From: Shewanella cutis
Lineage (GTDB): Bacteria; Pseudomonadota; Gammaproteobacteria; Enterobacterales; Shewanellaceae
NCBI RefSeq assembly: GCF_022410515.1
Contig: NZ_JACSDI010000005.1
Span: 62,001-126,000 of the forward strand
Length of the DNA: 64,000 nt
Direction: 5' to 3'
The notes under the pieces were generated by a model. It did not search any database. It saw nothing but the letters and a program-made list of their open reading frames with translations, and had not been told where the DNA came from. How positions within the stretch are numbered: position 1 is the stretch's first letter; every line of letters begins with the position of its first letter. Positions 6,118 through 52,680 of the stretch are shown piece by piece. Made by a program: the position numbers and the translations under genes.

Positions 6118-6213
6118 ATGGCGGCCATGCCGCCACGATCACTGTTGCAACAATGTCATCTTAACGACTATTGAACTGATCATCAGGATAAATGCTTTTG
6201 CCCCAAAACAAGT
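6118..6213 (+). repeat. Palindromic intergenic repeat, partial copy 1
   Basis: Carries the palindrome GGCGGCcatGCCGCC, then GATCACTGTTGCAACAATG and a tail ending in ATGCTTTTGCCCCAAA. The tail recurs with about 80 % identity at 6307-6392. It looks like a partial member of the same family as 6240-6392 and 8199-8293. Confidence 0.6.
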
Positions 6214-6239
6214 CGGCTGAATCGGATATTGCGATATAT

Positions 6240-6392
6240 GCATTGCCACTGTTTCCCCAGTGACACGCCGTGAATATATCCCTATAGGCTCGACGACGGC
6301 ATCCATGCCGCCAACGGTCACTGTTGCAACAATGGCAATTTTAATGACCATTGAACTGTTCATCTGGCTAAAAGCTTTTGTCCCAAAGCTGG
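6240..6392 (+). repeat. Palindromic intergenic repeat, copy 2
   Basis: Begins with GTTTCCCCAGTGAC, then CGTGAATATATCCCTATAGG, a central GGCATccATGCC palindrome, and GGTCACTGTTGC. The outer arms CAGTGAC and GTCACTG are inverted, so the element can fold into a nested hairpin. A copy in opposite orientation lies at 8199-8293 on the far side of the cassettes. Confidence 0.7.
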
Positions 6393-6623
6393 CTAGCATT
6401 CATTTAGTGAATTGAAAAATAAAGAATTAATTGCCCTGCAAAATCTCATCTATTTACCCAATGTTTGGCCCTACCGTAAAGCGACTAATAATATATGGGT
6501 ATAAAGTCGTATTTAAATTTAGATGCTTTTGAGTGTTTTTAAACTCATTAGTTTGCGCGTTTTTCCGGATGGTGTATTAGATAAAAAGCTGATAAGTTCT
6601 TTGCAATACAAGCAGTTAATGAT

Positions 6624-6665
6624 GTGCGTTTTTACTGGTCTAATGAAGTAAACGCGCATGCGCAC
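6624..6665. repeat. Imperfect inverted repeat before first cassette
   Basis: GTGCGTTTTTACT and AGTAAACGCGCATGCGCAC form an imperfect hairpin about 10 bp before the GTTATAAG at 6675. Possibly a decayed recombination site; its box architecture does not match the three clear attC-like sites downstream. Confidence 0.4.
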
Positions 6666-6700
6666 TAATAAAATGTTATAAGCCATAGGATAGATCGGTG

Positions 6701-7048
6701 ATGAAATCGTTAGTCGGGAAACTTGATGTACTCAGCGTTTTTATTTCATGGTTGCTTCTTATCGCTTTTTTTCTAGCACTAGGTTACGTTAAGTTTTTCT
6801 CTCCGCCGGAGTCTAGTGCGAGTCATTTGATATACATCTTCGGTGCGTTTTTTGGCGCCGTAGTTGTACATATTGTTTTGGCATTTTTTAATCGTTGCCC
6901 TCACTGCAATAAGTGTTTAACTATTCAAGGGTTTAAATCGCCACATCCAGCATCAAGTGGAGATTGGTCTAAAGTTGTTTGGCATTGGTTTTCAGGCTCA
7001 ATCGTTTGTATTCATTGCGGTAACAGGGTCAACACAAATGGCTTATAA
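6701..7048 (+). CDS. Cassette gene A: small membrane protein with a zinc-ribbon-like pair
   Basis: Unrecognised 115-residue protein. Two hydrophobic helices (VFISWLLLIAFFLALGYV, about residues 12-29, and LIYIFGAFFGAVVVHIVLAFF, about 43-63) are followed by a cytoplasmic-looking tail with CPHCNKC and CIHCG, which would fit a zinc ribbon. ATG 6701 is preferred to GTG 6698 because an AGGA lies about 10 bp before it. The stop codon sits inside the attC-like site that starts at 7043, which is typical for integron cassettes. No function can be assigned; the composition is more AT-rich than that of the cob genes. Confidence 0.7.
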   Translation: MKSLVGKLDVLSVFISWLLLIAFFLALGYVKFFSPPESSASHLIYIFGAFFGAVVVHIVLAFFNRCPHCNKCLTIQGFKSPHPASSGDWSKVVWHWFSGSIVCIHCGNRVNTNGL

Positions 7049-7141
7049 CAAGTTGCTTAATTTCGTTCCGGCCACAAACAGCGTGGCCTACACTGGACTG
7101 CCTACGCTGCGCTGCGGCAGCCTATTAGCAAAGCGTTATGC
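7043..7141 (+). repeat. attC-like recombination site 1
   Basis: A 99-bp site that opens with TTATAACAAGTTGC and closes with TTAGCAAAGCGTTATGC. The ends are imperfectly complementary (TAAC/GTTA core and TTGCT/AGCAA second box), the arrangement of R and L boxes in integron attC sites. The crossover would be at the G of GTTATGC (7135). About 85 % identical to the site at 8004-8102, while the genes between are unrelated. Confidence 0.85.
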
Positions 7142-7153
7142 ATTAAGGATGTC

Positions 7154-7534
7154 ATGAGTACGAATCCAATCTCAGCGGCCATTCCATTATGGTATGCCCA
7201 GATGAGCTGGGCGAAAGAGCTAATTCGACTTGGATTCGGTCTATCGAAAGCTGAAGACATTCTTTCTAGCGAAAATCGTGGCTGCAAATTAGTGCCAGGA
7301 ACAGTTTGGTATATTCGAACTCACGGTATCGGTGTAGATGTTTTTAAAACTCCTGATGTTGGAGGGATCGATTTTGATTTTGACAAACCCGACCCAGATC
7401 CGTGGCGAATGCAGATCTTTGTTGTGAGGCAAGTAAACGATGGAAACTTGCCTTACGAAAACTACCGTGAATTACTTGATGATGAAGAATTAATGAAAAA
7501 GGCCATTTCAGAGGCATTGTCGCAAAATGCATAA
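7154..7534 (+). CDS. Cassette gene B: soluble hypothetical protein
   Basis: A 126-residue soluble protein starting 19 bp after the crossover point of the first attC-like site. The middle shows HGIGVDV, then GGIDFDFDKPDPDPWRMQIFV, an acid-and-aromatic pattern that resembles the DUF6896 type of small proteins; this is a memory-based resemblance and not secure. The C-terminus is acidic and helical (YRELLDDEELMKKAISEAL). Its stop lies in the next attC-like site. Lone cassette genes of this kind are often immunity or toxin-antitoxin related, but nothing here shows that directly. Confidence 0.7.
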   Translation: MSTNPISAAIPLWYAQMSWAKELIRLGFGLSKAEDILSSENRGCKLVPGTVWYIRTHGIGVDVFKTPDVGGIDFDFDKPDPDPWRMQIFVVRQVNDGNLPYENYRELLDDEELMKKAISEALSQNA

Positions 7535-7606
7535 CAAACGCCAGCACACCGCGCCTGTGGCGCTGGACTCGCAACAAGTTGCTCGCCTGTGTGGCGGTAG
7601 TTATAC
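7529..7606 (+). repeat. attC-like recombination site 2
   Basis: A 78-bp site opening with GCATAACAAACGCC and closing with GGTAGTTATACG. The ends pair through TAAC/GTTA and GCC/GGC boxes, and the centre (GCGCCTGTGGCGC) is itself hairpin-forming. It differs in sequence and length from sites 1 and 3, as is usual for cassettes of separate origin. Confidence 0.75.
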
Positions 7607-7621
7607 GTCAAGGAGAGTATC

Positions 7622-7996
7622 TTGGCCACGATATTAATCACTATTTTCTTACTTCTTTTCGCGGCTGCTGAATTGATTTTTAGGTTACGAATTAGAATGG
7701 GAGCAATTCCTGTCTGTTTTATAGTATTGTTTGTAGTAATTCTGCTTGGTGCATATGGGTATTTCTTCGAAAGTTCTCCCTATGGAATAGTGCAGCCCCC
7801 AATTAAGTATGCTTTGAGCAACATTATTGTGTATGGGAGTCCGATTATATTAATGCTTGTTGCAACCAGCTTTTTTAAGAAACCTTCATCACTCTTTATT
7901 CATTGGTTTGCAGGTGTTTTCTCAGCTATTTATACGGCGTTTTTCCCTTTAATTGGCATATACACAGTATGTTCCTTAGGAATTGATTGCCTTTGA
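7622..7996 (+). CDS. Cassette gene C: small multi-spanning membrane protein
   Basis: A 124-residue hydrophobic protein with about four predicted helices (ILITIFLLLFAAAELIF; VCFIVLFVVILLGAYGYFF; LSNIIVYGSPIILMLVAT; a last one around WFAGVFSAIYTAFFPLIGIY). The start is TTG at 7622, supported by AAGGAG about 8 bp upstream and by the 22-bp distance from the GTTATAC crossover. It ends 8 bp before attC-like site 3. No family recognised. Confidence 0.65.
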   Translation: MATILITIFLLLFAAAELIFRLRIRMGAIPVCFIVLFVVILLGAYGYFFESSPYGIVQPPIKYALSNIIVYGSPIILMLVATSFFKKPSSLFIHWFAGVFSAIYTAFFPLIGIYTVCSLGIDCL

Positions 7997-8003
7997 AAAT
8001 GAC

Positions 8004-8102
8004 GTATAACAAGTTGCTAAATTTCGTTCCGGCCACAAAAAGCGTGGCCTCCACGGGACAGCCTACACTGCGTTTCGGCTGCCCATTAGCAAAGCGTTAA
8101 CC
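8004..8102 (+). repeat. attC-like recombination site 3
   Basis: A 99-bp near-copy of site 1: GTATAACAAGTTGCTAA at the left pairs with TTAGCAAAGCGTTAACC at the right; the central region CGGCCACAAAAAGCGTGGCC also forms a stem. Crossover at the G of GTTAACC (8096). This is the right-hand limit of the cassette run. Confidence 0.85.
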
Positions 8103-8198
8103 CATAGAAATTTTTATCCGAAATTCACCTGATACAGTCGACGTGCTGACACGCTTTTGTCCATTTGCTTTTAACGTACATATCGCAAATGGGTAGTT

Positions 8199-8293
8199 AA
8201 AATTGGCATTGGGGCACCAGTGACCGTTGGCGACATGGATGTCGCCGTCGAGCCTATAGGGATATATTCACGGCGAGTCACTGGGGAAACAAT
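8199..8293 (-). repeat. Palindromic intergenic repeat, copy 3 (inverted)
   Basis: Reverse complement of the 6240-6345 element with close to 90 % identity by eye. The centre is a perfect palindrome, GGCGACATggATGTCGCC, within outer arms CAGTGAC and GTCACTG. Together with the 6.2-kb copy it brackets the cassette island. Confidence 0.7.
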
Positions 8294-8617
8294 GACAATA
8301 AACTCCATAAATAGATAAAAAGATTAATCGCTTTTGTTCAATACCTTGTTAAAGGCTGCATTAATCTTGCTTTCGTATGAAGGTTGCACATGCAAACTGT
8401 CGCTGCATTTTATTGTTCCAATTTGTTAGCTTAGGGTTTTATGTCAGTATAGGTTTTTTGCTGCGACGTGAGCATGTAAAGCAAGGTCAGTTTTTCCGTC
8501 TTAGATCGCCCGTAAACAAGGCTATCGAGGCGGTGATCCCTTGGTAAAACCCGTTAGCGTCTGTATCGACAGCTTTTTACCTGCTAGATTGGGCATCAGT
8601 GCCTCAAGGATGATGCG
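8294..8617. other. Intergenic region upstream of the DUF2235 gene
   Basis: About 320 bp without a supported gene. I see no clear hairpin or operator; the promoter for the DUF2235-btuF pair should lie here. Confidence 0.5.
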
Positions 8618-9655
8618 ATGAATAAACGTATTGTGATTTGTGCCGACGGCACGTGGAATCGACCCGAGAAAGATCTTAAGGTGGATTTTCCCACCAATGT
8701 GCTACGTTTGGCGCGGGCCATTAGCCCGATGGCGGCCGATGGTAAACCTCAGCAGGTATTTTATGACTGGGGTGTCGGCTCCTATTACGATGAAGTGATT
8801 GGCGGCGCCACGGGGCGTGGGCTGCATAAAAACATCATGGATGGTTATCGCTATATTGTGCAAAACTACTCGCCCGGTGATGAGATTTATCTCTTTGGTT
8901 TTAGCCGCGGTGCCTATACAGTGCGCTGTCTGTGCGGCCTTATTAATAACTGCGGTATTCTTAAGCGTCCTGAAGCTCGGCTTATCCAGCAAGCCTTTGA
9001 CCATTATAAAAAAAGCAGTGCGCCCTTTGCCCCAAGCGGCGATAAATCCGTTGAGTTTAGGCATGAACATTGCCACGAATCGCGGGAGATTAAGTTTGTC
9101 GGCGTGTGGGATACGGTGGGCGCCATGGGGATCCCGATTTCCTTCCTCGGCTTATTTGAAGATAAAGACGAGTTTTACGACACTAAAATTGGCCGCAATG
9201 TGCGTGTTGCCCGCCATGCCTTGGCGATAGACGAGCATCGCAGCGACTTTGAGCCGACCATTTGGCAATTGCGCGACAATATGGATATGCAGCAAGTGTG
9301 GTTTGCTGGCGCCCATAGCAATATTGGCGGCAGTTATCAGCCGGATAAAGATGGCTCTTTATTGTCGGATAATGCCCTTGCGTGGATGATGGCAGAGGCT
9401 GAGCGGTTTAATTTGAGCATAGAGCCGCACTTAGCAGCGAGTTTGCAGCCAAATCCCTTGGCGACGCTGCACGATTCTCGCCGCAGTTTTTATCGGATTA
9501 AGCAGCCGTATTTGCGACCGCTTGATCCCGATGTTGCACCGGTATTGTTGCATCGCTCGGTCAAAGTGCGTTGGGAGCAAGATCCCAAGTATCGGCCTAA
9601 AAACCTGCAGGCTTACCTTGAAAAATTCGGCTGGCCACAAGAGTTAATTGATTAA
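8618..9655 (+). CDS. DUF2235 alpha/beta-hydrolase (Tle1-like phospholipase fold)
   Basis: 345-residue soluble protein of the DUF2235 family, whose best-known members are the Tle1-type phospholipases. Seen: the N-terminal CADGTWNRPEKD, the nucleophile elbow GFSRGAYTVRCL (GxSxG, about residues 97-101), VGVWDTVGAMGIP, and the late HSNIGGSY segment that holds the catalytic histidine in this fold. Strong start: AAGGATG lies just before ATG 8618. There is no signal peptide, and no type VI secretion gene (VgrG, PAAR, immunity lipoprotein) is nearby, so a housekeeping or cytoplasmic role is as likely as an effector role. It precedes btuF by 15 bp, so they may be co-transcribed. Confidence 0.85.
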   Translation: MNKRIVICADGTWNRPEKDLKVDFPTNVLRLARAISPMAADGKPQQVFYDWGVGSYYDEVIGGATGRGLHKNIMDGYRYIVQNYSPGDEIYLFGFSRGAYTVRCLCGLINNCGILKRPEARLIQQAFDHYKKSSAPFAPSGDKSVEFRHEHCHESREIKFVGVWDTVGAMGIPISFLGLFEDKDEFYDTKIGRNVRVARHALAIDEHRSDFEPTIWQLRDNMDMQQVWFAGAHSNIGGSYQPDKDGSLLSDNALAWMMAEAERFNLSIEPHLAASLQPNPLATLHDSRRSFYRIKQPYLRPLDPDVAPVLLHRSVKVRWEQDPKYRPKNLQAYLEKFGWPQELID

Positions 9656-52572: not shown

Positions 52573-52650
52573 GTTAGCCTCGTTGATTGAGGTAAAACTG
52601 AATTAGTAGTTAACACCTTAATGCTTACCTAAATAAATACCGTCCATCAT

Positions 52651-52680
52651 AAACCCGCTATCAATGCGGGTTTATTGTTG
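52651..52680 (+). terminator. Terminator of hugA-hutX-hutZ
   Basis: AAACCCGC (52651-52658) and GCGGGTTT (52666-52673) with a 7-nt loop, followed by ATTGTT. Confidence 0.8.

Follow-up and report, generated by a model that had tools for sequence, protein, structure and literature searches.

Arrays of integron cassettes that lie without an integrase gene nearby (CALINs) are often regarded as remnants. The question raised by the locus studied here is whether one such array is a remnant of this kind, or whether it belongs to a larger unit whose origin can be traced. The array occupies positions 6676-8096 of the window (the whole stretch of 64,000 nucleotides of Shewanella cutis that was analysed), where three cassettes with attC sites, all in one direction, are inserted intergenically in a cobalamin locus, next to cobO. 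The comparisons made here (Table 1) make an attI-cassette module the likely nature of the region: it would be a copy of a SonIntIA integron platform that lacks intI and belongs to a dispersed and exchanged family.

Table 1. Coordinates of the features of the array region in the window.
Feature	Position	Strand	Remarks
Junction site 1, core TGCCCC 6199-6204	6186..6215	+	PWM 21.4 bits; outside training set
180-bp module without ORF (Shewanella intergenic repeat)	6199..6378	+	between sites 1 and 2; related copies elsewhere in genome
Junction site 2 (left terminus), core TGTCCC 6379-6384	6366..6395	+	PWM 28.8 bits; in training set
Left end of platform	6379..6553	+	96% to L055 5880-6071; ~80-bp stretch of most copies missing here
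attI, SonIntIA type (by homology)	6554..6678	+	87% to attI beside intI in pNi1-3; ends at G/TTA crossover (G 6675)
Cassette 1	6676..7135	+	from crossover in attI to crossover in attC1
ORF 1, 115 aa	6701..7048	+	CxxC pairs; N-terminal part hydrophobic; GTG 6698 as alternative start
attC1, 99 bp	7043..7141	+	96.8% to L285 4811-4909
Cassette 2	7136..7600	+	
ORF 2, 126 aa, DUF6896	7154..7534	+	PF21837, 29.2 bits (cut-off 27)
attC2, 78 bp	7529..7606	+	91.7% to attC of catB6
Cassette 3	7601..8096	+	
ORF 3, 124 aa	7622..7996	+	hydrophobic; TTG start
attC3, 99 bp	8004..8102	+	88% to attC1; 75% to site in L284
Conserved right end of platform, ~60 bp	8097..8157	+	TAACCCATAGAAATTTTTATCCG...CACGCTTT
Junction site 3, core 8158-8163	8145..8174	+	PWM 24.0; in training set
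177-bp module	8158..8334	+	holds inverted copy of part of 180-bp repeat
Junction site 4, core 8335-8340	8322..8351	+	PWM 24.2; outside training set

The cassettes and their attC sites

An earlier reading of the window, made from the sequence alone, had described three small ORFs, each with a site that carries paired TAAC/GTTA cores, and had placed the ORF stops in or just before the sites; this description holds, coordinates included, and the likeness of the first and third sites, put there at about 85%, amounts to 88% identity over 103 bp. The three sites are identified as attC sites by homology rather than by folding. Sites 1 and 2 are 96.8% and 91.9% identical to two sites that lie behind other genes, both in one Pseudoalteromonas plasmid array. 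The attC2 counterpart at catB6 lies directly behind that gene in an integron with intI1, qacEdelta1 and sul1, and the counterpart of attC3 is a Pseudomonas plasmid site located ahead of qacEdelta1-sul1. The bottom-strand folds of sites 1 to 3 have modest z-scores of -0.3, -2.2 and -2.4, and folding alone is weak evidence. A home-made core-box scan for attC had a high background and missed site 1, an Rfam search of the array returned no family matches, and an alignment of 11 foreign attC sites from mixed families yielded no useful structure.

The DUF6896-like character assigned earlier to the second protein is borne out by PF21837, the sole Pfam family over its cut-off among the three proteins; the ORF 1 and ORF 3 proteins have no family over the cut-off, and no plasmid match at E<=0.001. 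A homologue of ORF 2, 60% identical, is found on a Pseudoalteromonas megaplasmid with attC-like sequence on both sides, and ORF 2 therefore probably travels as a cassette elsewhere too. The suggestion that the three proteins form a new defence or immunity set received no support from PADLOC, PHROGs or NCBIfam, in which none of them has a match at the E-values used. For a putative Pc promoter there is one weak match on the + strand at 6465-6492, and the region holds three matches against 5.9 in shuffles.

An attI site and the missing integrase

The sequence-only reading had found no attI. This was wrong, since the segment at 6554-6678, directly upstream of the first cassette, is homologous to an integrase-linked attI and its copies diverge past GTTA. 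The pNi1-3 stretch to which it is related extends, in this S. decolorationis plasmid, from the annotated integron integrase to the first gene behind it; the integrase is named SonintIA in the part of PMC9229058 available to us. Six loci (L126, L128, L131, L132, L133 and L139), whose intI products are 91-97% identical to the pNi1-3 integrase, have matches to 124-125 of the 125 attI bases at a distance of 174-177 bp from the intI start. The aligned attI copies agree as far as ...AATAAAATGTTA and then differ, a few of them being degenerate.

The absence of an integrase, which had been noted for the window, extends to the whole draft genome (G000, 50 contigs), where no frame scores over the cut-off of TIGR02249; the best match, at 80 bits against 265, is to a 309-aa frame that is taken for XerC or XerD. 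Among 129 genomes of the genus, intI is detected at E<=1e-60 in 79, and G000 is not one of these. Of the components of a complete integron, the region thus has an attI, by homology and position, and attC cassettes in the same direction, and lacks intI. With at least two attC sites and no intI it answers to the definition of a CALIN, as had been proposed; the proposal stands as regards an array without IntI, but plain CALIN is an incomplete description of the locus, since the array follows an attI within a unit that has recurring ends.

Copies of the platform and their ends

The attI site has 12 matches at E<=0.001 in the S. cutis genome, most of which are then followed by different genes. Eleven other genomes have 5, 8, 8, 10, 5, 7, 19, 18, 14, 11 and 11 matches, where the 12 genomes were picked for known hits and some of the matches in this range of 5-19 are partial; the genome with 19 matches (G112) has no intI match in the genus search. 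A 312-base query composed of the left end and attI matches 67 of the 129 genus genomes, a count that rests on at most five scored candidates per genome and includes weak matches and matches of the left end only; intI is present at E<=1e-60 in 37 of the 67 and in none of the other 30. Named genomes contain an exact 29-base attI pattern in 56 stretches, of which 49 are from Shewanella, 5 from Pseudoalteromonas and 2 from Vibrio. A full-length intI in one piece accompanies it in two stretches (L229, L233), pieces or parts of intI are found in six (L234, L246, L255, L250, L262, L243), and 48 show no intI, although some of these do not extend far enough on that side to decide the matter. A related 23-base pattern matches 12 of 394 genomes of the order, and its reversed control has no match among those listed.

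The partial intI matches in the attI-bearing stretches L243, L250, L255 and L262 (Pseudoalteromonas) and L246 (Shewanella) are possible intermediates of intI loss. A further attI-like site, 83% identical, lies ahead of a fosG cassette at L054 4001-4622; the sequence belongs to pN069_1, a conjugative plasmid of the IncC type which comes from Enterobacter in a human sample.

Both ends of the unit recur in these copies. Of 73 copies one was dropped for its short flank, and the left terminus, TGYCCC, was found in 41 of the remaining 72. It lies 372-401 bp before the end of attI in 35 of these 41, against 300 bp in the window; in plasmid copies the homology on the left begins at 6375-6379. The right end was found behind an attC-like end at 32 places, a few of them weak, in 30 of 73 oriented copies. 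The left terminus was not found in 31 of the 72 copies and the right in 43 of the 73, partly from insufficient flank. Of 24 intI loci, 8 have the same left terminus at a distance of 101-119 bp beyond the intI stop; counted by distinct places these are about 6 of 22, and among the 10 loci closest to SonIntIA the terminus is present in 8. The complete integron of pNi1-3 has the right end and both junction sites too. The position of the left terminus beyond intI, together with the right end in pNi1-3, suggests that the solo platforms derive from the SonIntIA integron by loss of intI. A search for empty platforms in the 129 genomes produced a single pattern match, which is a chance match in unrelated sequence and hence a false positive.

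Junction sites and other modules

Both ends of the unit coincide with a palindromic site of 11-6-11 bp, TAACACGCTTT-TGYCCC-AAAGCGTGTTA, which is a single consensus derived from the left and right junctions. A matrix scan of the 64-kb window at 17 bits detects exactly four sites, all on the + strand, with cores at 6199, 6379, 8158 and 8335; these are in direct orientation and delimit segments of 180, 1779 and 177 bp. An inverted repeat (6242-6349 and 8192-8299, 89%) reflects the presence of a Shewanella intergenic repeat of about 180 bp which flanks the module in opposite orientations.

Conservation confined to the ends of the unit itself would leave the outer arms of the junction sites random. 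For the comparison, the expected outer arm was taken from the inner arms only. A match at 6 or more of 11 positions is shown by 10 of the 16 distinct outer arms on the left and by 7 of the 13 on the right, against 99 of 1191 arms before other TGYCC words; with the other inner consensus the left count becomes 11 of 16 and the right count 8 of 13, against 102 of 1191. A Markov background contains one site in 687 kb, against 56 in an equal length of loci, which were picked around platforms. Consecutive sites less than 6 kb apart have the same orientation in 46 cases and opposite orientations in one, which speaks against terminal inverted repeats. The ratio is flattered by the training of the matrix on oriented platform ends and by the double counting of orthologous sites; it is seen in modules without attI too.

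The same junctions also occur at stretches that contain no platform. A near-identical repeat of about 115 bp stands at six places in plasmids, one plasmid having two of these. The sequences behind it part exactly at TGCCCC, and what lies beyond is an attI platform, a PIN/AbiH pair, a TIGR02391 protein, an Imm_superinfect protein or one of two other sequences. The TIGR02391 protein matches PD-Lambda-3_B with 439 bits. A scored site is also present behind the PIN/AbiH and Imm_superinfect stretches, and is not present behind the PD-Lambda-3_B stretch (8.8 bits). A DUF2971 protein is encoded in a module with junction sites on both sides. The AbiH and DUF2971 modules share the junctions of the platform. 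Of six references compared for the cargo, one, L046, is not a module gene and is uninformative. Known defence genes are therefore among the cargo of at least some modules, from which the same does not follow for the cassettes of the window.

The junction-started stretches with PIN/AbiH, PD-Lambda-3_B-like, superinfection-immunity and DUF2971 genes are located at L348 4497-6860, L349 from 3116 onward, L351 3116-3962 and L336 1226-2375. The repeat of about 115 bp is AT-rich and lies directly ahead of unrelated accessory sequence in Shewanella plasmids (L057 1681-1795 and before 5489; L348-L351).

Presence and replacement at common positions

At the cobO locus itself, presence and absence of the array among relatives, which had been put forward as a check, are both observed: among those resolved of the 29 best matches, out of 124 other genomes with a hit at this locus, 10 relatives are without the array and 4 have an attI match. 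In the 10 array-less relatives the next gene begins 125-186 bp behind the matched end of cobO. S. xiamenensis JCM 16212 has the left flank (97-98%) and the attI (99%) as in the window, and its first cassette at cobO has no match in the window's array. The gene at 8618-9655, which we take to be DUF2235-like, has cobO on one side and a btuF-like gene on the other, within the cobalamin locus. Elsewhere in the window, at 52578-52679, there is a weak Trp_leader match (27.9 bits against a gathering score of 41).

Replacement can be followed in detail in the two close genomes G112 and G113, which have 13 platform positions with common flanks of about 92-100% identity; at three of these only one flank falls within the 10 kb that were compared. 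The cassettes differ at 10 of these positions and are the same at 3. In 7 of the 10 pairs with different cassettes the homology stops within 4 bases of the attI end, and in three pairs (L295/L311, L298/L318, L304/L319) the right breaks fall on GTTA or where the right end begins after the last attC, as is expected of exchange mediated by IntI. When left end and attI are ranked by likeness, the positional partner comes first of 17 in all three same-cassette pairs and only 8th-16th in 6 of the 10 different-cassette pairs, so that in those 6 pairs replacement is not simple cassette exchange.

The 29 flank breakpoints of 16 comparisons, which cover the paired positions and leave aside the unpaired L293, L297, L313 and L315, include 4 on a scored junction core and 25 elsewhere. 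Those on a core are the right break of L292/L307 and the left break of L309/L336, in both genomes, and the left break of L292/L307 and the right break of L306/L334, in one. No clean empty site was seen, other sequence being present at six positions for which there was no attI partner; the plasmid flanks that were opened as candidate empty sites likewise led to other sequence or to modules. Homologous recombination between copies could explain part of the replacement, and cassette-level exchange, module-level exchange and homologous recombination must all be considered. We read the module as being exchanged cassette by cassette and, probably, also as a whole.

Proposed origin and movement of the module

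The attI and attC sites, the recurring ends, the absence of intI from the draft, the many copies with different genes and the differing cassettes at common positions can be regarded as established from the sequence. In the account that we favour, a SonIntIA-type IntI, either plasmid-borne or present in an earlier host, would have inserted the three cassettes at the attI crossover of a platform that had descended from a complete SonIntIA integron by loss of intI. We infer that IntI is supplied in trans or was supplied in the past, the present genome showing no intI, and that whole modules are moved by a recombinase acting on the junction sites. The modules, which are bounded by palindromic 11-6-11 sites in direct orientation, would be gained, lost and replaced at intergenic positions, in this case between cobO and the DUF2235-like gene.

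The main competing explanations concern the origin of the array, the means by which the copies spread and their replacement at common positions. That the locus is an ordinary CALIN, in which cassettes entered at chance chromosomal sites (attG-like) or are what remains of a degraded integron and the upstream repeat is an unrelated Shewanella repeat, would agree with the frequency of CALINs and single cassettes in Shewanella (reported in the available part of PMC9229058), but it is contradicted by the sequence: the 125-bp site adjoins a SonIntIA-type intI elsewhere, its copies diverge at GTTA, and both ends of the unit recur. We consider this explanation very improbable. If the platforms were instead spread as MITE-like or composite elements, in the manner of integron mobilisation units and with a transposase acting in trans, then a dispersed multicopy unit with recurring ends, no transposase inside and a flanking inverted repeat (6242-6349/8192-8299) would be accounted for, and a MITE-flanked integron has been described in Acinetobacter, according to the part of PMC3934969 available to us. 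The end sites are, however, direct and not inverted in 46 of 47 consecutive pairs, no target duplication was seen by eye in the junctions inspected, and the outer flanks carry a matching arm; we consider transposition an unlikely means of spread.

The replacement at common positions could also be ascribed to homologous recombination, either among the repeat copies or with DNA from outside, in which case the only site-specific step would be the ancient capture of cassettes. The many copies, the mosaic identities within platforms and the 25 of 29 breakpoints off the scored cores agree with this; the different modules at six plasmid places, which start precisely at TGCCCC behind a near-identical repeat, do not, and as a sufficient explanation we hold it to be doubtful. 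An extension of the favoured account can be offered tentatively, as something possible: a second-order system in which a recombinase acting on TAACACGCTTT-TGYCCC-AAAGCGTGTTA would excise and insert entire modules, phage-defence genes and complete attI-cassette arrays included, while IntI would serve many solo attI sites in trans. If this is true, integron arrays are themselves the cargo of a higher-level exchange system.

No recombinase gene clearly linked to the junction sites was found among the candidates examined. A three-gene recombinase set beside the L054 platform was rejected as the mover: its 634-aa protein occurs in 4 of 129 genus genomes, G000 not being one of them, and the two closest relatives are without such ends. 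The tyrosine recombinases of G000 found no clear support as movers either. Of eight longer regions inspected, four have no site of 13 bits or more, one has a single 14-bit site, two have sites of 17-18 bits whose arms are poor, and one, on contig C23, has a strong 36-bit site without a partner.

Comparison with known systems

Cassette capture is known biology. For dispersed solo attI platforms and for the junction site no description was found in the literature searched, which is a weak negative, as some of the search terms were narrow. The closest known relative is the SonIntIA integron (of pNi1-3, and chromosomal), which has the attI in common with the window copy and, in most close loci, the left terminus; it has intI, which the window copy does not. 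If solo attI sites were served in trans, a single integrase could supply a dozen dispersed sites or more with cassettes, and a related attI with a fosG cassette has already reached a conjugative IncC plasmid of Enterobacter.

Integron mobilisation units are arrays without a working integrase that are moved as a unit. The window family resembles these units, and MITE-flanked integrons, in being a unit without a working integrase, but differs from them in its direct-repeat junctions, in the lack of a target duplication seen by eye and in its many chromosomal copies. In dif modules, short modules lie between palindromic 11-6-11 sites of alternating orientation. The sites at both ends of the window's unit are 11-6-11 palindromes too, but are direct and not alternating, and to our knowledge their arms are unlike the dif sequence. 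Modules of this type with pdif sites are known in Acinetobacter (PMC10132070, in the part available). With the CALINs and SALINs treated in PMC9229058 the window array shares attC cassettes without a nearby intI; it differs from them in its attI and in the recurring ends of the unit, and the available part of that paper makes no mention of attI at CALINs. With a proper attI and recurring ends, a CALIN-type array of this sort gives part of the Shewanella CALINs an origin that is concrete and can be tested.
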